Below the pieces are notes generated by a model. The model searched no databases, was not told the DNA's origin, and worked only from the letters and a program-made list of their open reading frames with translations. This document shows positions 1,443-41,219 of a DNA stretch of 53,245 nucleotides, one piece after another. The DNA lies in contig CAMZLS010000005.1 of the NCBI GenBank assembly GCA_947311765.1, positions 1 to 53,245 of the forward strand, in the 5' to 3' direction. Position 1 is the first letter of the stretch. Each line of letters starts with the position of its first letter. The translations under genes were made by a program, and so were the position numbers. Source of the DNA: an uncultured Helicobacteraceae bacterium (GTDB taxonomy: Bacteria; Campylobacterota; Campylobacteria; Campylobacterales; Sulfurimonadaceae).

Positions 1443-3206
1443 TCAAAGAAGGGAACTCAGACAGATATGTTGTGGCTCTTTTTTTGCAGATTTTTTTAGC
1501 TGGGATAAAATTAAATTTATCTCTTGTTTATATTGAGATTTATTAGCACTATTTACAAATAAAACAGCAGCACTAACACTCAAAAGTGCAAAATGCTTCT
1601 CTTTTGCTTCTCTGTCTTTGGAGATAATGTAACCTCTGTTTCTGTCTTCTACACTGTAAAGTTCTCTCGCATTATTTTCAAAGCGTGTTATAATATTTTT
1701 TAGTTCAACTGTATAATTTGTCTCTTTTTTATCTGGTCCTACTGCTACAAAAAAATCATCCCCACCGATGTGACCTTTAAAGTATTTTGAAGAGAGATTT
1801 TTATTGATGATATCAGCAAAGAGTTGTATAGCTCTATCTCCTAATCTAAAACCATAGACATCATTGAAGGCTTTAAAATTATCAAGATCAAAATAACAGA
1901 GAATATAAGCAGTTTTATCACTCTCTTGTACTTTTGAAAGATACTTTTCTACTACTCTGTTGCCAGGAAGCTTTGTTAGTGGGTTTTGGTCTCTTGCGAT
2001 AATAATATTCTCTTCATTCATAATACTAATAATATTATTGGCTGAGAGAAAACCGTAATATTTCGCATTTTTTGTAACGATAATGCCTTGTGCATTTGTA
2101 TTGCTTGAGAAGAGCTCAATAATTGTCTCTATATCGCTGTTGATATCTATAGACGGACAAGAGCGTACAAAAGACTTAAGACGAGATTTCATATCTGTTT
2201 CATTTGAAAGTATGGATATTCCATAGGGTGAGTAGAGATACTCTTTGATATCAGTTTCAAAAAAGAGCCCTATAGGCTCTTTGGCATCATTAACTACTGG
2301 AACAATCGCATTTTCTTGATATTTTTTAAAATATGCTAGTATCTCTCTCATAGAGTTATTTTTTTTGATAGGGTCAATTTTACTTATATATTTTTTGATA
2401 TTGCCTGTGTCTTTATCTCTTCTGGAGTGTTTCATGATTTTTACAATATCAGAGTAGTTTTGAAGTATCTCATGCGTTATCAATGTTGGTTTTTGTACAA
2501 AATAACCTTGCACAAAATGGCATCCAATATCCTTACATGTAAGATACTCCTCTTTTGTTTCAATCCCTTCGGCAACAACCTGTATCCCCAATTGAATGGC
2601 TAAATGAGTGATACTTTTTACCATCAATCTTTTTTTCATATCTTTTTGAATATCTTGCAAGAAGTATCTGTCAATTTTAATAACTTCAGGCGTAGCGTCA
2701 AAAAGAAGTTTATATCCAGCATAGCCTGTGCCAAAATCATCAATAGCTACAAGATAGTTCTCATTTTGATAATGTTGCAAAACCTTATCCATGCCACTTT
2801 GCTTTTCGAGCTCATGTCTTTCTGAGATTTCAAAACAGAGATTTTCTTTTTTTATATTAAATTCATTTAAAATTTCTAAAGTATTTCCAGTTGAAAAATT
2901 CTTTGTATTGAAGAGCCTATTGTCTAGGTTGTAAAAAAGTTTCATCTGTTCATACTCTTGTATCGTAGTAAATTTTTTAAAAACTTTTCTGCGTAATTCT
3001 AAATCGAAACAGTATAAAATATCCTCTTCATAAACAGCATCAAAAACATCAAAAATTGATTTGTATCCTATGGCTAAATGTTCTCTTAAGAGTGCTTCTA
3101 CAGCATATATACGCCCAGTATTAATGTTTATAATTGGCTGAAAAGCTATATCAAGTTTATCTATTTTTTTCTTCCAAGCAGGTGTTAAGCAAGAGTTTTT
3201 TTTCAT
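1443..3206 (-). CDS. EAL-CBS-GGDEF cyclic-di-GMP signalling protein
   Basis: The protein is 587 aa, cytoplasmic, with no signal peptide. The N-terminal EAL phosphodiesterase domain (about 10-250) shows EALLRE, FEIS, IDDFGTGYAG, IKIDRYF, VAEGIE and QGYFVQKP, i.e. the expected catalytic and Mg2+-binding residues. A CBS-pair region (about 265-400) follows, then a C-terminal GGDEF domain (about 410-570) with LDNFKAFNDVYGFRLGD and the active-site variant HIGGDDF. The D in place of E in GGDEF weakens the case for cyclase activity, and the RxxD product-inhibition site is missing. CBS domains usually bind adenine nucleotides, so the protein may link energy state to c-di-GMP turnover (inference). The RBS AAGGA is about 9 bases before the ATG. 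Confidence 0.88.
   Translation of the reverse strand: MKKNSCLTPAWKKKIDKLDIAFQPIININTGRIYAVEALLREHLAIGYKSIFDVFDAVYEEDILYCFDLELRRKVFKKFTTIQEYEQMKLFYNLDNRLFNTKNFSTGNTLEILNEFNIKKENLCFEISERHELEKQSGMDKVLQHYQNENYLVAIDDFGTGYAGYKLLFDATPEVIKIDRYFLQDIQKDMKKRLMVKSITHLAIQLGIQVVAEGIETKEEYLTCKDIGCHFVQGYFVQKPTLITHEILQNYSDIVKIMKHSRRDKDTGNIKKYISKIDPIKKNNSMREILAYFKKYQENAIVPVVNDAKEPIGLFFETDIKEYLYSPYGISILSNETDMKSRLKSFVRSCPSIDINSDIETIIELFSSNTNAQGIIVTKNAKYYGFLSANNIISIMNEENIIIARDQNPLTKLPGNRVVEKYLSKVQESDKTAYILCYFDLDNFKAFNDVYGFRLGDRAIQLFADIINKNLSSKYFKGHIGGDDFFVAVGPDKKETNYTVELKNIITRFENNARELYSVEDRNRGYIISKDREAKEKHFALLSVSAAVLFVNSANKSQYKQEINLILSQLKKSAKKEPQHICLSSLL
2532..2543. repeat. CTTACATGTAAG copy in the EAL-CBS-GGDEF gene
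   Basis: This is a full 12-bp palindrome, read as YLTCKD in the minus-strand gene, at the end of the EAL domain. Confidence 0.75.
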
Positions 3207-3231
3207 AATTTGTTTCCTTTTTAAATCGCAT

Positions 3232-3247
3232 AACCCCGCAAGGGGCT
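3232..3247 (-). terminator. possible hairpin between nucleotidase and EAL/GGDEF genes
   Basis: On the minus strand AGCCCC-TTGC-GGGGTT forms a four-G:C stem extended by a G:T and an A:T pair, five bases after the stop codon of the 5'-nucleotidase gene. No clear U-tract follows, so intrinsic termination would be weak. It may be an attenuator or an mRNA end stabiliser. Confidence 0.35.
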
Positions 3248-3251
3248 TTTC

Positions 3252-5066
3252 TTACTCTTTGTAGCTTTTTATACAGTGCTCGTTTGCTGGGAGTTTTGTG
3301 ATGCCTTCGCCTTTTTTATGAAGCGTTTTAACATATTCTACAAAGCTCTCTGCATAATCAAGATAGGTATCTATTGCTTTAGCACCACTCTCTTGAGCCG
3401 TCTTAAATGTCGTATAGCCATCTCGACCTTCAGCAATATAGTTGTTTGTAACTATGACATATGTTTTTGCCATATCTATATTGGAAAATTGTTTTGTTTT
3501 TCTATTCATCATCTCAAGATTGCTTATTCTACTATTTGCAGGTTTTGAGACATCTATATCGTATTTTAAACCGTAAGCGTAAGGGAAAGATCCGCTAGAG
3601 CCGCCATTGTCTTTATAGTTGATGATAGCATCTTCTAAAACCTGTTTAATTTGAGCACCTGTCATATCAATCTCAAAGAGAGTATTTGAAAATGGTAATA
3701 ATGTATAAGCATCACCATAGCTAATATTTCCAGCAGGAATACTTACTCTCACACCACCAGCATTTTGAATACAAGCATCAGCTCTTAAACTTGCTTCATA
3801 AAAAGCTTTTGAGACAAGAGGAGCTATATCACTCCCTAAAGGCATAGAAGCACCATCAACACCGCCATAAGTGTGTGTCGGAATACGGATATGATTAAGA
3901 GAGTCTGTTGCCACACCAATAGGGTCATTCTTTTTGGCATCTACTTGTGCTTTATAGTCTGATAGCTTTTCTTGAAGCTTACTATCTTTGGCAACTATAC
4001 TAAGATTGTCATGAGCATCTATGATATTAACTATCTCATTTCTTTTTGCGCCACTGAGCGTTACTTTTTCTCCAGAGGCATCTTTTTGTTTAAAGGTGTC
4101 TCCTATAAGTAGATGCGGTATACCCACACATTTTGTCAATTTTCCATCTTTACTAAAGCTAACATCCACTTCACCAAGTACCAATGAGTGTGCCCATGCT
4201 TGAGCGATACACATAGGCTCACCACTTTTTGAAGTGACAGATTTTGGATATACAGGAACTTGAGAAGTCAAAGATAGTGCAGAAAAATCACCCATAAGTG
4301 TATGCGAATCCCCATCTATAATAACATCAATTCCACTGACTTGCGAGGCTAAATTAAGGTCATTTTTGTATCCATAGTGGCTAAGAAGCACTATCTTGTT
4401 TACCCCTTTTGCTTTGAGTTCATCTGCATATTTTTGTACAGTTGTGACCTCATCTAAAAACTCTATAGCATCACTAGGTCTTGAGGAGACTTCTGTTTTT
4501 TGAGCTATTTCAAGCCCGATAATACCAAGTTTTGCCCCATCTATCTCCTTTATGATATAAGGAGTCCAAGCACCATCAAGAATGCTTCCTTTTTTTGCGA
4601 CAACATTGCCAGAGACGATAGGAAAATTTGCCTTATCTATAAACTTTTTAAGTGTTTCATCACCACCATCAAACTCATGATTTCCAAGCGTAAAAGCATC
4701 AAGCTGAAGACTATTCATCAGATCTACACTTGCTTGTCCTTGAAAAAGAGTATGATAAAGCGTACCGCTAAAAGCGTCTCCTGCACCCATAAAGAGCACA
4801 TTTTTTTTGCTAGCTTTGATCTCATTGGCTTTTTGTGCTATTCTAGGAAACCCACCTATTTGTGTATATACTTTTCCTATACTACCACCATAATTTAACT
4901 TTTTAACACTCTCATCTAAGTGTCCGTGATGGTCATTAAAATGTAAAATTGTACTTTCCAATGCAACCGAATCCATCTTTACAGAAGGGTTGCTATCCTC
5001 CCCGCATCCAGAAAAAAATAGTGCTGTACTAAAAAGCACTCCTGCGCTCACTATGCTTAATCTCAT
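3252..5066 (-). CDS. 5'-nucleotidase/UshA-type metallophosphoesterase lipoprotein
   Basis: The protein is 604 aa. A signal peptide ends in the lipobox FFSGC (Cys21), so it is probably an outer- or inner-membrane lipoprotein facing the periplasm. The N-terminal calcineurin-like domain has the metal-binding series LHFNDHHGH (42-49), GAGDAFSG (95-101), GNHEFDGG (128-135), LLSHYGY and DGDSHT. The last reads GDSHT where GHSHT is usual, so one conserved histidine of that motif is replaced. The C-terminal half is the 5'-nucleotidase substrate-binding domain (NAGGVR, DGYTTF). The family hydrolyses extracellular nucleotides to nucleosides plus phosphate. An AAAGG ribosome binding site precedes the ATG. 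The exact substrate is not predictable. Confidence 0.88.
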   Translation of the reverse strand: MRLSIVSAGVLFSTALFFSGCGEDSNPSVKMDSVALESTILHFNDHHGHLDESVKKLNYGGSIGKVYTQIGGFPRIAQKANEIKASKKNVLFMGAGDAFSGTLYHTLFQGQASVDLMNSLQLDAFTLGNHEFDGGDETLKKFIDKANFPIVSGNVVAKKGSILDGAWTPYIIKEIDGAKLGIIGLEIAQKTEVSSRPSDAIEFLDEVTTVQKYADELKAKGVNKIVLLSHYGYKNDLNLASQVSGIDVIIDGDSHTLMGDFSALSLTSQVPVYPKSVTSKSGEPMCIAQAWAHSLVLGEVDVSFSKDGKLTKCVGIPHLLIGDTFKQKDASGEKVTLSGAKRNEIVNIIDAHDNLSIVAKDSKLQEKLSDYKAQVDAKKNDPIGVATDSLNHIRIPTHTYGGVDGASMPLGSDIAPLVSKAFYEASLRADACIQNAGGVRVSIPAGNISYGDAYTLLPFSNTLFEIDMTGAQIKQVLEDAIINYKDNGGSSGSFPYAYGLKYDIDVSKPANSRISNLEMMNRKTKQFSNIDMAKTYVIVTNNYIAEGRDGYTTFKTAQESGAKAIDTYLDYAESFVEYVKTLHKKGEGITKLPANEHCIKSYKE

Positions 5067-5184: not shown

Positions 5185-6819
5185 TTATGAAATCGCTGAT
5201 AAGACAATCTCTTTTGCTTCTTCTTGAATTTGTCTCAAATGTTCTAGCGAAATAAAGCTCTCTGCATAGATTTTATAGATATCCTCTGTGCCTGATGGGC
5301 GCGCGGCAAACCAGCCATTTTTAGAGCTTACTTTCAGTCCACCTATCTTAGCACCATTGCCACTCGCTTTTGTAAAAACACCTTCTATAGCTTCACCTGC
5401 TAAGGTTTTCGAGGTGATATTTTCAGGAGATAGATTTTTCAAGATAGATTTTTGCTCTGGTGAGGCTGGGGCATCTATGCGCTCATAATACGCCTTGCCA
5501 AACTCTGCCTCAAATTCTTGATAAATCTGCCCTGGGTCTTTTTTCAATTTTGCGGTAATCTCAGCTGCAAGGAGATTTAAAATCACACCATCTTTATCCG
5601 TTGACCAGACTGAGCCATCTTTACGCAAAAATGAAGCCCCCGCACTCTCTTCACCACCAAAACCAAGCGCACTCTTATAAAGTCCATCCACAAACCATTT
5701 AAAGCCTACAGGAACTTCTATAACTTTTTTCCCTATAGAGTCCACAACACGATCAATCATCGAACTTGATACTAAGGTTTTTCCAATACCTAGCTCGCTG
5801 CTCCACATTTTTCTATGTGAATAGAGATACCAGATAGCTACTGAGAGGTAATGATTTGGGTTCATCAGTCCAACGCTAGGGGTTACAATCCCGTGACGAT
5901 CAAAATCGGGGTCATTTCCAAAGGCGATATCGTACTTATCTTTTAGACCAATCAGTGAAGCCATTGCAAAAGAAGAAGAGCAGTCCATACGAATTTTTCC
6001 ATCTTTATCACATGTCATAAAAGAAAATGTTGGATCAGCATATTCGTTGACAATATCCATATCAAGTTTATAAATCTCTTTTATTTTTTGATAGACTGCG
6101 ATACCTGAACCACCCATAGGATCGACTCCTATTTTCAGTCCTGAGGTCTGGATAGCTTCCATATCTACAACTTCTTTCAGAGCAAGCACATAAGGAGTGA
6201 TAAAATCATACTCTTGGACTAAATCACTCTGCAAGGCTTTGGCAACTGAAACCTTTTTCACTTCACTCAAGTTGTTTTTTAAAAGCTCGTTGGCACGCTT
6301 TTGAATGAAGTCAGCAACATCCGTATCGGCAGGTCCACCATTTGGGGGATTATACTTAAAGCCTCCATCACTTGGTGGGTTATGAGATGGCGTGATAACC
6401 ACTCCATCACATAATTTATTTGCCGTTTTATTTGCTTCTAAGATACTAAAAGAGATTACAGGTGTTGGAGTATATTCACCATTTGCAGCAATCCTACATG
6501 TAACGCCATTGGCAACACAAACTTGCAGTGTGCTTAATTGCGCTGGGGTCGAGAGGGCATGGGTATCTTTGCCTATAAAAAGCGTACCTGTAATACCTGC
6601 TGATAGGCGATACTCGCACATAGCTTGCGTAATTGCAAAAATATGATCTTCATTAAAACTACTTTTTGTAGCACAACCACGGTGTCCTGAAGTACCAAAA
6701 GCAACTTGTTGTGTGCTCTCAAAGACATCAGGTTTTTGCGTATAATACGAAGCAATTAACTGTGGAATATTTTCTAAAATACTTTTTGGGGCGATTTTTC
6801 CTGCGTAAGGGTGAGACAT
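5185..6819 (-). CDS. pgm: phosphoglucomutase (alpha-D-glucose phosphate-specific)
   Basis: The protein is 544 aa from the ATG at 6819, which has a strong AGAGGA ribosome binding site. An upstream in-frame extension of 13 codons lacks one. It interconverts glucose 1-phosphate and glucose 6-phosphate in the cytoplasm for glycogen or cell-wall sugar metabolism. Visible family motifs are FGTSGHRG near the N-terminus, the phosphoserine loop TPSHNPP (Ser145), the metal-binding DPDFDRHG, the sugar-binding GGEESAGASF, and the C-terminal phosphate-binding RPSGTEDIYKIYAES. The length fits the Pgm family. The gene is divergent from the accessory island at 6939 and marks the left boundary of conserved sequence before it. 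Confidence 0.95.
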   Translation of the reverse strand: MSHPYAGKIAPKSILENIPQLIASYYTQKPDVFESTQQVAFGTSGHRGCATKSSFNEDHIFAITQAMCEYRLSAGITGTLFIGKDTHALSTPAQLSTLQVCVANGVTCRIAANGEYTPTPVISFSILEANKTANKLCDGVVITPSHNPPSDGGFKYNPPNGGPADTDVADFIQKRANELLKNNLSEVKKVSVAKALQSDLVQEYDFITPYVLALKEVVDMEAIQTSGLKIGVDPMGGSGIAVYQKIKEIYKLDMDIVNEYADPTFSFMTCDKDGKIRMDCSSSFAMASLIGLKDKYDIAFGNDPDFDRHGIVTPSVGLMNPNHYLSVAIWYLYSHRKMWSSELGIGKTLVSSSMIDRVVDSIGKKVIEVPVGFKWFVDGLYKSALGFGGEESAGASFLRKDGSVWSTDKDGVILNLLAAEITAKLKKDPGQIYQEFEAEFGKAYYERIDAPASPEQKSILKNLSPENITSKTLAGEAIEGVFTKASGNGAKIGGLKVSSKNGWFAARPSGTEDIYKIYAESFISLEHLRQIQEEAKEIVLSAIS

Positions 6820-6938: not shown

Positions 6939-7613
6939 ATGAAATTTATATTATTACTATTAAGCATTATTTCACTCTTACATGTAACACCAAACTATGC
7001 AAAAGAAAATGTAGGCCTAAAAGACTCTCCTCTTGCAAATATTATAAAAGTTGAAGGAAGAGTAAAGTTTTTATTACATTGGCAGATAAATCTAAGATAA
7101 TTTTAGATGAAAATTCCCAACTGAGCCTTATTAACTCTACTAAGCTAAAACAAACTTCAGGTGAAATTTACTATAAAATCAAAAAAACGCCACAAGGCAA
7201 GAGGTTTAAAGATAGAGACACCTTTTTCTATCATAGGCATAAAAGGGACGGAGTTTATTGTAAACTCTAGTGGAGATGGGAAGATTGCGCTTAATGAAGG
7301 CTTACTTGGGATAGAAGCCCTCCGTGCAAACTATGAGCTTCATAGAGAAAAAGTTTTAAGTGAGTTTGAAGAGTATGTTCGTAAACAAAATGAAGCTTAT
7401 GAAAACTATCTCAAACAGAGTCAAGATGATATTGTTACTTATGTTAAAGAGCTCAAGCTAAAACCAACAAAAATACTCAATTTCAAACATTCAGATAATT
7501 GTAAAAACGACTGTGATACAAAGAGGCGCTGCTTAAATTTAAAGAGTTTCAAAAAGAGGATGTCGTATGCGAATATTTCATTAAAAAGCTATCTTAATGA
7601 ATTTTTCATATGA
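6939..7613 (+). pseudogene. FecR-domain exported protein, broken by frameshifts
   Basis: An ATG with a good AAAGGGAG ribosome binding site opens a signal peptide (MKFILLLLSIISLLHV...) and the FecR start VEGRVK, then the frame stops at 7098-7100. Homology continues in a second frame from about 7079 (LADKSKIILDENSQLSL) and a third from about 7200 (RGLKIETPFSIIGIKGTEFIV), ending in a coiled coil (LSEFEEYVRKQNEAYENYLKQ). The last stretch also reads better in another frame (KEFQKEDVVCEYFIKKLS). Part of the usual FecR region between VKV and TLADKSK appears deleted. I infer a decayed gene for a periplasmic FecR-like ligand-binding protein. Its coiled coil resembles the N-terminus of the next gene. 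Confidence 0.7.
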
Positions 7614-7647
7614 CTTGGAATATACTTAAGCCATAAGGAGTAATACT

Positions 7648-8871
7648 ATGCGAACAAAATATTTAATTTTCTTGGTTTTTTCATTTTTACTTCATGCTGA
7701 AAGTTTTGAAGAGTTCAAAAAACAGCATAACACTACCATACAAAAAGAGCAAGACTCTTTTAAAATATATAAAAAAAATCTTAACGCAGAGTTTAATGCG
7801 TATGTCAAAGAGATTAATGAAGCTTATATTCAATACAAAAAAGAGCTCAATACCTACTGGAAAAATCCAAAACTTTCATCACAAAAAGATTGGGTCAAAT
7901 ATACAAAAGATAAAAAAACACGCACAACTGTAGGATTTGATACAAATACCATTGTTTTAGAAACAATAGCAACTTCTCCAAAAGAGGCAGAGCTACAACT
8001 GAAAAAAGCACTTGCAAGAGTTGCGGTTGACGATATGAAGAGTGCCATAAAAAGTGATGAACTCCAACAAAAAATAGCCAAAATAGAAAAGAAGAATAAA
8101 AAATTAACCATTGATGCACCACTTAAAAATGAGCTTATTCTTACTCCAATTCTCTTTAAAAAACCACCAACAAAAAAGAAAATTATCCAGTATGTTAATA
8201 AAAAAGTAAAACCAAAAAAAATTACAGTAAAAAAATCTAAAATTCATAATGCAAAAATCTATTCACTTACAGTAAAGTTGCCTTCTGACACTATGATTAA
8301 ACGCTCAAAAACCTATGAGAAAAATGTACGTCGTAATGCAAAAAGATTTGATTTACCTGTCGCCTTAGTTTTTGCAATTATGCACACGGAAAGTTCTTTT
8401 AATCCTTTTGCTAAATCACATATCCCAGCTTATGGACTTATGCAGATAGTACCACGCTCAGCGGGTATAGATAGCTATGTATTTTTACATAAAAAGAGAA
8501 AAATTCCTACTGCAAATTACCTTTACAATAGTGCTAACAATATAGAAATGGGAAGCGCTTACTTACATATACTCTATTATCGCTACCTCAAATCAGTGAA
8601 AGACCCAACGAGTAGGCTTTATTGCACTATTGCTGGATACAACACAGGAGCTGGCAATATTGCCTACGCTTTTATTGGTAACAATAATATAAAAAAAGCC
8701 TCTAAAAAAATCAATAAAATGTCCTCGCAAGAAGTTTATAACCATCTTTTACATCATTTAAAATACGAAGAAGCAAGAAACTACCTAAAGCGTGTAAGTA
8801 AAAGAATTAATTCGTATAAACAGGTCTATAAAACAAATGATTTTATTTTTTTCACTGCAAATAAAAGCTAA
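7648..8871 (+). CDS. MltC-like lytic murein transglycosylase
   Basis: The protein is 407 aa with an N-terminal signal peptide (MRTKYLIFLVFSFLLHA) and no lipobox. Residues about 20-75 are a coiled coil rich in aromatic and Glu/Lys residues (FEEFKKQ, EFNAYVKEINEAYIQYKKE), matching the MltC N-terminal domain. A basic linker follows. The C-terminal SLT domain (about 215-395) has the catalytic glutamate in HTESSFNPFAKS, then YGLMQIVP, AGYNTGAGN and the late Y-x-x-R pattern. It would cleave peptidoglycan glycan strands to 1,6-anhydro products in the periplasm. It is one of the few intact genes in this island. E. coli MltC is a lipoprotein; this one appears soluble or loosely anchored. Confidence 0.85.
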   Translation: MRTKYLIFLVFSFLLHAESFEEFKKQHNTTIQKEQDSFKIYKKNLNAEFNAYVKEINEAYIQYKKELNTYWKNPKLSSQKDWVKYTKDKKTRTTVGFDTNTIVLETIATSPKEAELQLKKALARVAVDDMKSAIKSDELQQKIAKIEKKNKKLTIDAPLKNELILTPILFKKPPTKKKIIQYVNKKVKPKKITVKKSKIHNAKIYSLTVKLPSDTMIKRSKTYEKNVRRNAKRFDLPVALVFAIMHTESSFNPFAKSHIPAYGLMQIVPRSAGIDSYVFLHKKRKIPTANYLYNSANNIEMGSAYLHILYYRYLKSVKDPTSRLYCTIAGYNTGAGNIAYAFIGNNNIKKASKKINKMSSQEVYNHLLHHLKYEEARNYLKRVSKRINSYKQVYKTNDFIFFTANKS

Positions 8872-8884
8872 AAAAGAGGATGCT

Positions 8885-9413
8885 ATGCTAACTGTTATTA
8901 CACTAGCCTTACTAAAAACATTGGCTTCATTTTTAATTTGAACAGAGTTTATATATGACGCTTGAGTATGATATAGAGGATGCACCTTATTGGTATTATC
9001 GAGAGGGAAGTGACGAGATGTGTAGTTTTACCTACAAAGAAGGTGGCTTAGAGAGCGTAGAAATTGCCAAAGAAAATGCCAATACCCTGATGAATAAACG
9101 CATTAAAACACTCACTACCAAAGTAGCCTATGAAAATTTTAGCAAGATAAACAATCCAAAAGAAAAATTACTCGTAGAGAGCTTTAAAAATGATCCTGAG
9201 TTAAATGTTTTTGTAGATAGTTATCTTGTGTATGAAAAAGTAAAACACGAGGACGATGCTGCGATTACCTTTGTAAAAGCCTGTATTGACAAAGAACGAA
9301 TCATGGCTTATGAATCTAAGCGTCTTAAATCTTTACAAAAAACAATTATGCTACATAGATCAGACGAGGCTCTCGATGAGCTTGATAAAGAGTTTCAAGG
9401 TGAAAATAATTGA
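8885..9413 (+). pseudogene. LPP20-like exported protein with disrupted N-terminus
   Basis: A strong ribosome binding site (AAGAGGA) precedes an ATG at 8885 that encodes only an 18-residue hydrophobic signal (MLTVITLALLKTLASFLI) and then TGA. The main body is open in another frame from 8955 (152 codons), with no ribosome binding site of its own. The body reads APYWYYREGSDEMCSF followed by a helical EIAKENANTLMNKRIKTL. This pattern of an aromatic strand, a Cys, then alternating Ala/Asn helices resembles the LPP20/LpoB-like fold (weak). I infer that a frameshift near 8935-8955 separated the export signal from the mature part. Its stop overlaps the next start. Confidence 0.5.
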
Positions 9414-9688
9414 GATATTTTACACTTTTACTCTTCACAATACTTATAAGCGCCTGTTCTCAACCTAAGCCTGTTGTTGATACAAGACCAGTTTGGATAA
9501 ACGCACCTTATATTGATAATGAAACCGCAGCAGTAGGCAGCGCTCATACTCACTACTATGGAAAAACCGCGCAACGAAAACTTGCAATTTCAAGAGCACT
9601 TGATGAACTAGCCTTACAACAAGGCGTTAAGGTTATGACGCAAACTCTGCGTCATAACAAAAAAGCAGGTAGATTTATCACTCTATAA
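9410..9688 (+). pseudogene. LPP20-family lipoprotein, shortened
   Basis: It starts with TTG overlapping the previous stop, with AAGG upstream. The signal peptide ends in a lipobox (LISACSQ, Cys16). The mature part VWINAPYIDNETAAVGSAH followed by AQRKLAISRALDELALQQGVKV matches the start of LPP20-type lipoproteins (PxWI...GxG.A, then A-rich helix). The frame ends after 92 codons, shortly after an inverted repeat and an A-run at 9659-9664. In the neighbouring frame the sequence stays open (KKQVDLSLYKNDYKEKG...) to 9734, overlapping the next start as coupled genes do. A frameshift in the A-run is therefore likely. Confidence 0.55.
9632..9658. repeat. perfect 10-bp inverted repeat inside the LPP20-like gene
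   Basis: GTTATGACGC, loop AAACTCT, then GCGTCATAAC, followed by six A residues. The stem is perfect. It encodes VMTQTLRHN in the gene frame. It could stall transcription or replication. The disrupted end of the host frame begins immediately after it. Confidence 0.6.
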
Positions 9689-9715
9689 AAATGATTATAA
9701 AGAGAAAGGTTTAAC

Positions 9716-10620
9716 ATGTCGTATCATCGCATAAAACTCTATGTTGGAATATTTATTACTCTTTTTTTATAAGTACGACAATACTCTTTTATATCATTAT
9801 GGATAAAAAAGGATTTTTTGACGATCACATAAACTTCTTCTTTACTACCTCTAATGCCAGCAGTTTTTTTGTAGGTATGCCTATAAACTTTTCAGGATTT
9901 GAGATAGGTGCCATCACTCATCTTGAACTCACAGATAAAGGTGAGGTAAAAATCACTTTTAGAATACAAGAACGCCATCATAAATGGATTTGTGAAGATA
10001 CACTATTGATGCTTGAAAAACCTCTCATCGGTTCACCTACAATTACCGCTATGACATCCTTAGGTTACAAAGAACTTAAAAAAGGCTCTGAACTTAAAAT
10101 TATCATACGAGATGATATTGTCATAAACCTCCAGCCAATACTAAGTGAAGTACAGCATATTGTCCACTCAATAAATATACTCACAGACAATCTCGCTTCC
10201 AAGGATGGACATCTTGAAAAAAGTCTTGCCAATATTGAGCATTTTAGTAATAAGTTAAATAAAGACAAGGCACTTCTTACTACTATCACTGGGGATAAAA
10301 ATAGCACCTACACACTCAATCAATCTTTACAAAAAACAGAAAAAATATTTCAAAATATCGAGCTTTTACTGCAAACAATACAGAGCAAAGTTGTTCTTCC
10401 AGCAGGTGATAGTGTCAAAACTCTTGATTTAATCTTCTTAGATATTAAAAAGAAACTCGACACACTCGATACAACTGTCAATACGCTTGGAACGTATGAC
10501 AAAGAGCTTCTACTCCTCAAAAAAGAGCTTCATCTTAATCTTGATAAAACGCATCAACTGCTTGAAAAAGTCAATACCTTGCTTTTAGATACCTCAAAAG
10601 AGGAGATTAAACTCCCATGA
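9716..10620 (+). pseudogene. MCE/MlaD-family lipid transport protein with a T-run frameshift
   Basis: The ATG at 9716 has an AAAGG ribosome binding site and encodes MSYHRIKLYVGIFITLF, the start of the single N-terminal membrane anchor. The frame then ends in a run of seven T (9762-9768). One more T would join it to the 273-codon frame that follows (ISTTILFYIIMDKKG...). The MCE domain reads FFVGMPINFSGFEIGAITHLEL, then LEKPLIGSPTITA, and is followed by long helices ending in a leucine zipper-like coil. MCE proteins form rings that move phospholipids between membranes. No MlaE/MlaF-type permease or ATPase gene is adjacent. It could be a real knockout, a phase-variable state or an assembly error. 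Confidence 0.7.
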
Positions 10621-11261
10621 AAATTTTCTTCTTCATTTCTCTATTTATATTTACAGCCTGTAGCACAAAAACTCCTATTAATAATTGGCAGTATCAAAGC
10701 GTTGCAAACCATAAAAGCTTCGAGCGTTACTATCTTGAGGGCAAGCTAGAACTAGCAAGTGTTGAACTAGACAATGCGCGTTCATACGCATCACAAAGTG
10801 CTGATTTTATACCTCTTGCGCGTATAGAACTCTCTTACTGTGCCTTGCGTGTTGCAATGCTAGAGACCTATTCTTGCCCTAAATACGAAGCACTCAAGCC
10901 TTTTATTCATTCAAAAAGTCTTGAGGCATATAGCTCTTTTTTATCAGGAACACTCAAGACAGAAAATATCAAAAATCTTCCGAGTCAATATCAAGAGTTT
11001 GCTAGCGCACAACTTCAAAAGAGCCCTCAAAAAATAGTGCAATCACTTCAAAAAATAAAACCTTTAATATCACAAATGATTGCTGCATCACTCTCTAAAA
11101 AGTATCTAAATGAAACTGTCATAGAAAGTATCATACAATCAGCCTCATTTCATGGTTACAAATATGCCCTCATCCAATGGCTAGAATTTCAACTTCAACA
11201 AACAAATGATACAAAAGCTCAAAAGCTTATTTTTCAAAAACTTAAAATAATTAAAAATTAA
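10617..11261 (+). CDS. lipoprotein of unknown function coupled to MCE gene
   Basis: The protein is 214 aa. The start overlaps the MCE stop by four bases (ATGA), implying translational coupling. The signal peptide carries a lipobox (FIFTACST, Cys15). The mature protein is almost entirely helical, with repeating amphipathic segments (LEGKLELASVELDNARSYA, then PLARIELSYCALRVAML) like a small TPR/HEAT-type solenoid. I do not recognise the family. Lipoproteins partner MCE proteins in several lipid transport systems (PqiC/YrbC style), but this one does not look like the PqiC fold. Confidence 0.6.
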   Translation: MKIFFFISLFIFTACSTKTPINNWQYQSVANHKSFERYYLEGKLELASVELDNARSYASQSADFIPLARIELSYCALRVAMLETYSCPKYEALKPFIHSKSLEAYSSFLSGTLKTENIKNLPSQYQEFASAQLQKSPQKIVQSLQKIKPLISQMIAASLSKKYLNETVIESIIQSASFHGYKYALIQWLEFQLQQTNDTKAQKLIFQKLKIIKN

Positions 11262-11284
11262 ATGAAAGAGAGAGATAATTTATA

Positions 11285-12809
11285 ATGCGTATTTTTATCT
11301 TAATACTTTTTTTCACTCTCACTCTTTTTGCAGATACAGATAGAGCTTTGCAACTTAAAAAAATGCAGCACGAAGGTCGTGTTGCCTTAGTTATCGGTAA
11401 CGCTGCATATAAAGAGCAGACCCTTAAAAATCCTATCCACGATGCTTCTGCTGTGAGAGACTCCCTAAAAAAGAGAAATTTTCAAGTCTTTTATATAGAA
11501 AACGGTTCTCGTCGCATTATGGTACAGACGATAGATCGCTTTATTCGCGCACTTAAACACTCAAGCATTGGTCTAGTCTATTACGCAGGGCATGGTGTTG
11601 AGGTGAATGGGGAAAATTTTCTTATCACTGTTGGAAGTACTATTGAAACTGAGATGGATGTAAAATATGAGGCTATCAGCATGAGTCGCCTTATCGCTGA
11701 TATGCAGAGGACACGAAGCCGTCTTAATATCTTCATTATGGACGCGTGTCGCAATAACCCTTACCGTGAGGCATCACGAGGTGGCACTAGTGGTGGCTTA
11801 GCAAATACAGAAGCAGAAGGTTTTTTTATCGCCTTTGCCACTGCGCCAAGCAAGGTTGCCAAAGATGGCTCAAGGTGAATATGGACTCTTTACAAAATAT
11901 TTCTTAAAATATATCAAAAAAGAGGGCATGCCTCTACGCGAAGTTTTTCATAATGTTCGTCAAAATGTCTATAAAGATAGCCGCAAAAAACAGCTACCAC
12001 TTGTACGCAATGGCATTGGAATGGGAGAGTTTTATTTTACACTTCCAAAGATTAATTTTCCATCAGAACCACTCAAAACATCTGTGGCACCGCCATTAAC
12101 ACAAAAACTTGCGACACCCACTAGCATCGTAAAAATCAAAGAAAAACCTAAAAAATATACTCTCTCTATAGATACAAATTGTAAATATTCACATATCTAC
12201 ATCACCAATATTAAACCAAAATACGAAAGAGGTATGCGCTTATCTCCAGGAATTTATAAATTAAAAATTGTAGTTTCTGGTTATAAAAAATTAAGATATA
12301 CACTTAATCTATTTCAAGATACTCATCTTCGTTTAGAATTAGAAAAAAAATCTACTGCTGTAGCAACCCACAAAGATAAAGGTTATTGGACTAATCCTAA
12401 AACAAGGCTTGCTTGGGAAGATAATATCCAAAAAACTTCTATGATTAACTGGAGTGACTCGGCTGCTCTCTCATGGGAGGATGCAAAAGAATATTGTAAA
12501 AATCTTGACTTAGGAGACTGCCATGATTGGCGACTTCCTAGTTTATACGAACTCTTTAGTATCGTGGATTATAAACGTTATCAGAGTGCCATAAAAAAAC
12601 CTATAAAAAATGTATCTGGTGGTTTTTACTGGACAAGCTCAACTGTTGTTCCCGATACAAGTGGTTTTTTCTCCAATATGTTTGGAGCCTCCAACGAAAA
12701 TATTGCACCTTCGCAAGCATGGGTTATCTACTTTCTTGATAGTAGTTCTGAAACAGCAACTTTTGCAACAGATGGGCATGTTCGTTGCGTAAGAGGGGCA
12801 CAAAGATGA
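11285..12809 (+). pseudogene. secreted caspase-PEGA-DUF1566 protein, one frameshift
   Basis: The first frame has a signal peptide (MRIFILILFFTLTLFA) and a peptidase C14 domain with VALVIGNAAY, catalytic His103 in YYAGHGVEV and Cys155 in MDACRNNPYR. It ends prematurely at 11878. Removing one A at 11872-11873 (CAAGGT to CAGGT) restores DGSGEYGLFTKYFLKYI, and the protein continues about 310 residues. These hold the end of the caspase fold, a PEGA-type beta domain (YERGMRLSPGIYKLKIVVSGYKK), and a C-terminal DUF1566 (Lcl) domain (TRLAWED, CHDWRLPSLYELFSIVD, FYWTSS, HVRCVRG). Intact, it would be an exported protease-like protein of about 507 aa. A disabled gene is the simplest reading; a sequencing error cannot be excluded. 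Confidence 0.75.
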
Positions 12810-13195
12810 TAAATTATATATGTATAAGCCTAGCACTCAGCATCTCTCTTTGTGCACAAAACTATAGAGCAGACTCTCTAATGTGGCAAGATAGCGAAAT
12901 TGTGGCAAGTCAAGAATACGATGTGCAAGAAGCAAAAGCGTATTGTGCACAACTGAGTTTAGACGGTTATAGCGATTGGCGTCTTCCAAAAATCGAAGAG
13001 CTTTTTACTCTTCTTGATATTTCAAAAAGAGCCCCTGCTGTTGTTGATGGCATACAAGTTTGTGTAAGCGATTACTATTGGAGTAGCACCATCTTTGCTG
13101 GTGATGCGTACTCTTATTGGAGTATAGATTTTACTACGGGGATAATTAAGAGCTTTAGCCCTGGAACATCTCTGTTTGTTCGTTGTGTACGATAA
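12806..13195 (+). CDS. exported DUF1566 (Lcl-type) domain protein
   Basis: The protein is 129 aa from the ATG at 12806, which overlaps the stop of the caspase gene (ATGA). The signal peptide is MINYICISLALSISLCAQ. The mature part is a single DUF1566 domain: LMWQDSEIV, EAKAYCAQLSLDGYSDWRLPKIEELFTLLD, DYYWSSTIF, SYWSIDFTTG and FVRCVR. It is paralogous to the C-terminal domain of the gene just upstream, sharing the DWRLP..eELF, YWSST and VRCVR landmarks. DUF1566 domains are C-type-lectin-like folds in exported proteins. The binding partner is unknown. Coupling suggests it acts together with the caspase-like product. Confidence 0.75.
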   Translation: MINYICISLALSISLCAQNYRADSLMWQDSEIVASQEYDVQEAKAYCAQLSLDGYSDWRLPKIEELFTLLDISKRAPAVVDGIQVCVSDYYWSSTIFAGDAYSYWSIDFTTGIIKSFSPGTSLFVRCVR

Positions 13196-13734
13196 TTATT
13201 TTGCTGTTGTAAAGAGCAACACTGCCTCACTTATCTCCTGTTTTTTACTTTTCTTGCGAATAAGCCCACGAGTTTTTGCAAGTCCCTCTTTTGGATTTTT
13301 GCCTATAAGATAATACCCACTCTTTTCATCATAATAGTGTTTTGGAAGCTTACTTATCTTCTTATTTGAAGCGATAAGTTGCAGACTCTCTATGCCAAAA
13401 GGTGCTTCAACGGTAAATGTCCCGATACTTATCCAGTGATTTGTATCATCAGCATTCACAAAACCCTTAAAACGCTCATCTCCTGCGCCCTCATTTAACT
13501 CAAGAAGTAGGCAAGTTTCGCATGGTCTGTCTGGGTGTAGCCTACGAGATAATAGTATCCCATCTTGTTGAGTTTTATCAAAAGTTCTATCTCTTCACCT
13601 TAGGTAAAAAGCAGATCTTCTGTCCCTTTATTTGTAGCGAGTGATGTTTTGAGTAAGCTTGATACAACAACCCCATCATGCAAGAGCGCATCAAAACTGA
13701 TATTTTTTGCTTTGACACGATACTGCTTATACAC
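13196..13734 (-). pseudogene. DUF4384-containing protein fragment, truncated by the IS
   Basis: The last 88 codons (from 13459) are open: DTNHWISIGTFTVEAPFGIESLQLIAS, then KSGYYLIG, TRGLIRKK and AVLLFTT. This matches the C-terminal end of DUF4384 domains. Upstream the homology continues in other frames (GYYYLVGYTQTDHAKLAY, then LLELNEGAGDERFKGF, joined by a frameshift near 13505) with an in-frame stop near 13600. It can be followed back to VYKQYRVKAKNISFDALLHDG, exactly where the insertion sequence begins. No matching N-terminal half lies on the other side of the IS, so DNA was also deleted or moved. The gene runs opposite to the rest of the island. DUF4384 is common in exported proteins, often beside caspases. 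Confidence 0.65.
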
Positions 13735-39930: not shown

Positions 39931-41219
39931 CTAAAATACAAAGAAGATAAGCACTCCAATAAGGCTCAATAAGCCCATAGCACCGCTTGCCTTCTTGAAA
40001 TTTCCTTGAATCAATTCCACTAAAACATATACAAAAGCACCAAGCATTAAGCCATTGGTGATAGAGCAGGTGAGTGGCATCATCATAACTATAAAAAAGA
40101 TACTAAACATTACGGCTGGATCTGAGTAGTCTATAGATTTTAACTCACTAAACATTAAGGCTCCGACGATAACTAAGGTAGGATAGATTGCGTTGGTATG
40201 AATCGCTTCAAAAAATGGCAACATAAAAAGAGGCAATATAAAAAGCAGTCCCGCAATAACAGCAGTCAGTCCCGTTCGTCCTCCCGCTTCAACACCTGCA
40301 GCGCTCTCAATAAAAGAGGTGGTGCTTGTAACCCCAGCAAGAGCGCTTACTGCCGTTGCTAGACCATCGGCTTGAATAGTTTTTTCTAGCTCTGGTGAGC
40401 GTTTTTCTTGAAACATTTTTGCTCTGAGTCCTATGCCTGTTAGGGTGCCTAGCGTATCAAAAAGATCAGTCACTAAAAAAGTGACAATGAGAGGAATAAA
40501 CGCCAAAGAAAAGGCTGAAGCAATATCTACATGTAAGGCAATAGGCATAATAGATGCTGGCATGGAAAAAAATGTATCAGGCAACTCTTTTAAGCCAAAA
40601 ATCCAAGCTACAACAGCGGTGATAAAAATAGATATAATGAGTGCCCCACGGTACTTTTTAATACTCAGTATAAGTCCAAGCACTAATCCAAAAAGACCAA
40701 GCAAAATGGCAGGATCTTTGAGATTCCCAAGAGTCACAAGTGTCGCTTCAGACCCAACGATAATACCCATCTCTTTAAGACCAATAAAGGCAATAAAAGC
40801 TCCAATACCAGCGCTCACAGCACGTTTAATATCGATAGGAATGGTATCTATCATCCAGCGACGAAGAGGTGTGATACTGATGAGAATATAAAGAATTCCA
40901 GAGATAAATACAATCCCAAGTGCACTCTCCCAAGGAATCTTCATAGCATTTACGAGAACAAAAGAGAAGTAAGCATTCAAGCCCATTCCAACACTCTAGC
41001 AACAGGGGTATTTGCCCACAAACCATTGAAGATAGACGCAAAGATACTCATCAAAGCAGTAGCCGTGACTAGCGCACCAAAAGGCATTCCAGATGCACTC
41101 ATGATTGAGGCATTGACAGGGATGATGTAAAGCATAGTAAAAAAAGTTGTTAACCCTGCGATTAACTCCGTTTTTATGGTGGTGTTATTTTCTTTGAGTT
41201 TAAATAATTGCATCATCAT
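39931..41219 (-). pseudogene. AzgA-type purine permease (NCS2), frameshifted
   Basis: The start at 41219 follows AGGAG. The first frame reads [29 protein letters not shown] then [15 protein letters not shown] and stops near 40977. The rest of the protein ([24 protein letters not shown] to the end) continues in a shifted frame. Homologues read [18 protein letters not shown], so one base is missing around 40985-41000. Twelve or so membrane helices follow and are otherwise intact, with the family motif TSTTSFIESAAGVEAGGRTGL. AzgA proteins import guanine, hypoxanthine or adenine. As sequenced, the transporter is not made in one piece. Confidence 0.8.

Follow-up and report, generated by a model that had tools for sequence, protein, structure and literature searches.

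An aromatic hendecad helix common to FecR-like and MltC-like envelope proteins, with a possible role in docking

A decayed gene cluster and its intact counterpart

The window analysed here is a stretch of 53,245 nucleotides from an uncultured Helicobacteraceae bacterium. It carries the remains of a FecR-like gene next to an intact gene for an MltC-like lytic transglycosylase, both with a coil of three 11-residue units. The features of the locus are listed below.

6939-7516, + strand: FecR-like pseudogene, delimited by open reading frames and by alignment with an intact 233-aa sister gene (L060:77-778)
6939-7100 and 7161-7613, + strand: the two pseudogene pieces seen as open reading frames, namely a signal peptide piece and the frame with the FecR domain and the coil
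7329-7427, + strand: FecR coil, NYELHREKVLS EFEEYVRKQNE AYENYLKQSQD (coil profile E 6.7e-13)
7541-7597, + strand: remnant of a CHASE2-cyclase gene, the last 18 codons (KEFQKEDVVCEYFIKKLS) and the stop, matching the end of L060:782-2731
7648-8871, + strand: intact MltC-like lytic transglycosylase gene, 407 aa, with a Sec signal peptide, Pfam SLT and Mltc_N domains and a fold match to 4c5f
7756-7854, + strand: N-terminal coil of the MltC-like protein, SFKIYKKNLNA EFNAYVKEINE AYIQYKKELNT (coil profile E 1.4e-14)
9410-9688, + strand: truncated LPP20-like lipoprotein gene, identified from the L060 gene order and the junction of window 9628/9670 with L060 4743/6105

The sister genome sequence L060 (WFND01000103.1) belongs to a metagenome-assembled genome (MAG) named 'Helicobacteraceae'. 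Its gene order is FecR (77-778), CHASE2 plus nucleotide cyclase (782-2731), MltC (2761-3984) and a 173-aa gene, followed by an LPP20-like lipoprotein gene, MlaE, a further gene and MlaD. Three blocks of the window, 7064-7448, 7549-9628 and 9670-11209, were aligned with L060 248-631, 2686-4743 and 6105-7639, respectively. The FecR-like gene was broken near its start by an internal deletion of ~100 bases and a frameshift. The FecR domain (PF04773) scored 41.4 bits (E 2e-10) in the sister gene and 18.1 bits, below the cut-off, in the window fragment. Behind the break, ~2 kb with the CHASE2-cyclase was gone from the window, blastn similarity resuming at 7549 (L060 2686), and the cyclase was not found by a search of the rest of the window's genome. 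An intact FecR gene with an adjoining CHASE2 gene, as found in L060, is thus absent from this genome. The original prediction had taken the FecR-like and MltC-like genes as neighbours. They do lie side by side in the window, but only because the CHASE2-cyclase gene that separates them in L060 was deleted. A second deletion of ~1.36 kb behind the LPP20-like gene took out the MlaE permease gene together with most of the gene that follows it.

The envelope cluster at 6939-13459 looks decayed, and most of the remaining reading frames of the window look intact. The 173-aa gene is frameshifted near its start (about 8885-8955), a caspase-like gene (Peptidase_C14, with Lcl_C at the C-terminus) at 11285-12809 lies in two overlapping frames split at 11835-11878, and a short DUF4384-like remnant occupies 13196-13459. 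Outside the cluster, a permease-like gene at 39931-41219 is divided between frames of 351 and 80 aa, possibly by a frameshift. In L060, the gene at 5681-6169 between MlaE and MlaD had no Pfam match, though the ATPase MlaF is expected there. Random sequencing error in this draft genome is a less likely source of the broken genes, since they are clustered at 6.9-13.5 kb and most other reading frames are intact.

The MltC-like protein

The protein encoded at 7648-8871 matched Pfam SLT (75.9 bits, E 2.4e-21) and Mltc_N (27.7 bits against a cut-off of 22.6, E 2.7e-6). It scored 187.5 bits against an NCBIfam MltC equivalog cut-off of 375 bits, with PRK11671 as the best model, and is by these scores a relative of MltC and not the curated equivalog. 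Its structure model (mean pLDDT 89.9) matched E. coli MltC (4c5f) with an E value of 7e-23 and a TM score of 0.84 by target length. Glu248, within an HTES motif, was invariant in 37 aligned sequences, and lytic transglycosylase activity is predicted from this residue and the active-site motif. In the model, the coil lay within a single helix, residues 20-68, directly behind the signal peptide.

Homology and specificity of the coil

The original prediction had singled out the FecR peptide EFEEYVRKQNEAYENYLKQ and the MltC peptide EFNAYVKEINEAYIQYKKE, which were located at 7362-7418 and 7789-7845, as claimed. The two were identical at 10 of 19 positions with a BLOSUM62 score of 52, a value reached by none of 20,000 shuffles, so that the likeness goes far beyond composition, as predicted. 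Among the 15,458 19-mers from the window's long reading frames, each was the other's sole strong match. The alignment of the two coils covered 33 residues without gaps, corresponding to three hendecad units with the pattern [FY]xx[FY]-x7 three times. Aromatic residues occupied the same six positions (2, 5, 13, 16, 24 and 27) in 29 FecR and 38 MltC sequences, with shares of 69-100% and 79-97%, respectively. Reciprocal profiles, built without genus g1 (the window's genus) against circularity, found the coil of the other family in the window: the MltC-only profile matched the FecR coil at E 4.3e-7, and the FecR-only profile matched the MltC coil at E 1.5e-7. A comparison of the full FecR and MltC families by hhalign gave a probability of 91.5% and an E value of 8.7e-7 over 68 columns, mainly the coil.

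The window's own pair was unexceptional, as 56 of 1,344 FecR x MltC pairs scored equal or higher. The coil DNA of the two genes was identical at 35 of 57 bases, with a common run of 12. FecR and MltC coils from the same genome were only slightly more alike than those from different genomes (p 0.007, uncorrected).

The coil profile was also searched against the whole 1.98-Mb genome, and no matches at E<=10 were found beyond the FecR and MltC coils; a pattern common among unrelated coils of this genome would have refuted the original prediction, and none was seen. In 60 relatives, nearly all coil matches fell in three exported families, namely FecR-like (~230-290 aa), MltC-like (~400 aa) and a third protein of ~500 aa. 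Among 200 genomes of a Betaproteobacterial order, coil matches occurred in two only, at FecR or transglutaminase-like genes. On the strength of the two own-genome matches, the three families in relatives and the Betaproteobacterial scan, we read the coil as a single homologous module rather than a widespread type of coil. Chance or composition as the source of the likeness was rejected on the shuffles, the genome scan and the reciprocal profiles. The related idea that charged coils of alike composition have converged draws on the shortness and charge of the segment, and on the finding that NEAY and similar extras of the window's own pair are missing in the sister species. Set against the shuffles, the reciprocal profiles and the genome-wide uniqueness, it is very improbable.

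The third carrier has the coil at its N-terminus. It matched no Pfam family at E<=0.01, and the name transglutaminase-like comes solely from a Cys (CEDR) - His - Asp (ADPTY) pattern picked out by visual inspection. The protein was seen at loci L074-L077 and L133-L162, and its gene stands beside flgH in genus g16; the gene was not found in the window's genome and is present in the sister genome (G001:C167). The coil common to these three families appears undescribed, as no description was found in the open-licence literature searched.

Position of the coil in the two folds

The FecR coil had been described as C-terminal. The structure model (mean pLDDT 81) places it elsewhere, as a weakly predicted helical insert (pLDDT <50 in parts) that separates two FecR-fold strands, and a free C-terminal tail was ruled out by this predicted structure. 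The claim of one module common to both proteins held, the two coils being homologous 33-residue hendecad helices. The accompanying suggestion of a duplication is unsupported, as is gene conversion between the two genes, because the coil occupies different places in unrelated folds, inside FecR and at the N-terminus of MltC, and is also present in a third family. FecR-MltC fusions, sought among the matching reading frames, were not found.

E. coli MltC is anchored by an N-terminal cysteine. The MltC of A. baumannii likewise has an N-terminal membrane-linking cysteine (PMC12861720). Both share the fold and the Mltc_N (DUF3393) and SLT domains of the window protein, whereas the latter has an N-terminal aromatic-hendecad helix of ~49 residues in place of the lipidated N-terminus, and has neither a lipobox nor an N-terminal lipidated cysteine by sequence. 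Among the MltC relatives fetched, a lipobox was present in 12 of 18 coil-less proteins and 4 of 42 coil-bearing ones (p 1.5e-5, lineage effects included). By these counts, the coil occupies the position of the lipid anchor of other MltCs, and the split may reflect just a few lineage events. On visual inspection, at least some of the four lipobox sequences in coil-bearing proteins look like normal signal peptides whose core contains a cysteine. In genera g10 and g12, the relatives of MltC (L167-L169) have neither feature and carry another N-terminal helix with IHxENVDI(V/I).

Genomic co-occurrence and neighbourhood

To what extent the three carriers occur together was assessed in 120 genomes of the same family. 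MltC was present in 25 of 27 FecR genomes (Fisher 3e-12, ignoring phylogeny). As for the other two, one has the end of an MltC gene at a contig edge and one is 56% complete. The transglutaminase-like gene was found in 23 of the 27 (Fisher 1e-6, ignoring phylogeny). Conversely, 18 of 43 MltC genomes had no FecR, and FecR therefore cannot be an obligatory partner of MltC. A comparison of coil decay in genomes without FecR gave p 0.47 for MltC, where a narrow motif filter had reduced the number of sequences, and p 0.016, uncorrected, for the transglutaminase-like protein.

Conservation of the FecR-MltC pair in other genomes thus extends to co-occurrence and mostly not to adjacency. The two genes lay apart in nearly all other genomes (at 1.55 and 2.28 Mb of the single contig of G088), by which conserved adjacency was ruled out for most. 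At the Campylobacterota FecR loci examined, the next gene was a CHASE2-cyclase, with a second FecR-like gene between in L049. A Sideroxydans MAG has coil-bearing MltC and FecR genes as direct neighbours, their reading frames overlapping by 14 bases. Three other Betaproteobacterial genomes have FecR clustered with LPP20-like genes and a coil-bearing transglutaminase-like gene; in one of them the profile found the FecR and third-protein coils <1 kb apart. A Bacteroidales MAG has the transglutaminase-like gene near MltC. In L004, L060, L080, L081 and L085, LPP20-like genes are found directly beside MltC or in its vicinity.

These data bear on how the coils might act. If FecR and MltC were direct partners, as the original prediction proposed, their coils would pair in register and the FecR-CHASE2 sensor would hold or recruit the hydrolase, consistent with the identical hendecad phase, with the occurrence of FecR almost only alongside MltC and with operon neighbourhood in genus g1 and Sideroxydans. 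The MltC coil is nevertheless kept in genomes without FecR and, in the window, next to a FecR gene that is broken; a third protein bears the same coil, and the excess likeness of same-genome coils is small. The proposal of direct partnership is partly supported, and direct pairing is rather doubtful. Alternatively, the three coils might bind one envelope component, such as an LPP20-type lipoprotein or the wall, with no contact among themselves, as an address tag that replaces the lipid anchor. The near mutual exclusion of coil and lipobox in MltC, the persistence of the coil without FecR, and the LPP20-like genes near MltC and in the Betaproteobacterial clusters all point this way. LPP20-like genes are, however, common and widespread, and the receptor is a candidate only; we hold a common receptor to be a serious possibility at somewhat below even odds. 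An old helical segment could also have been reused as a rigid spacer, homologous but with no common partner: the coil is a simple amphipathic helix, and the low-confidence insert in the FecR model could be mere elaboration. Aromatic conservation of ~90% in both families, together with the strong co-occurrence, exceeds what a spacer needs, and this explanation is unlikely.

Discussion

In our main reading, to which we assign a probability of about one half, the coil acts in docking and would hold soluble wall enzymes and a FecR sensor at one envelope site. One homologous three-hendecad helix with a straight aromatic stripe would serve three sorts of exported protein that are not lipidated: FecR-type sensors that act with a CHASE2-cyclase, lytic transglycosylases of the MltC type and transglutaminase-like proteins. 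Docking could proceed either by in-register coil pairing or via a common receptor, the leading candidate being an LPP20-type lipoprotein, whose gene is frequently a neighbour. The FecR-CHASE2 pair could in that case signal changes to the wall, or lost contact with the hydrolase, by way of a cyclic nucleotide. In the window's genome the signalling half is dead, with FecR broken, the cyclase deleted and the transglutaminase-like gene not found; the transglycosylase and its coil remain.

Known systems offer partial parallels. In Burkholderia, a FecR protein with a wall-binding LysM domain is encoded in an operon with a CHASE2 kinase (PMC5192318). In Sinorhizobium, CHASE2 cyclases take part in the perception of envelope signals (PMC13001267). 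By analogy with these arrangements, a wall-linked FecR-CHASE2 sensor is plausible. As in the Burkholderia operon, FecR lies directly upstream of the CHASE2 gene in relatives of the window's genome, whereas their output domain is a nucleotide cyclase, LysM is absent and the coil lies within the FecR fold; in the window itself the pair is destroyed. The FecR/PupR anti-sigma regulators of cell-surface signalling have the same FecR Pfam domain, and a weak fold match was obtained to the PupR C-terminal domain (6ovk). In contrast to these regulators, no sigma factor link and no anti-sigma domain were seen, and the partner is a CHASE2 cyclase. Hendecad coils as a motif common to co-working proteins are also described for DivIVA, GpsB, FilP and Scy (PMC9858780); these are Gram-positive division proteins, and the likeness is one of description.

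In its fullest form, the docking reading would have an undescribed aromatic hendecad helix replace the lipid anchor on soluble wall enzymes and couple them, in a single place in the envelope, to a wall-monitoring FecR-CHASE2 cyclic-nucleotide sensor, a tentative proposal that we regard as improbable in its entirety. The common coil offers a concrete and testable physical link from the FecR-CHASE2 signalling pair to wall remodelling. It also points to a way in which lytic transglycosylases lacking a lipid anchor could be held in position.
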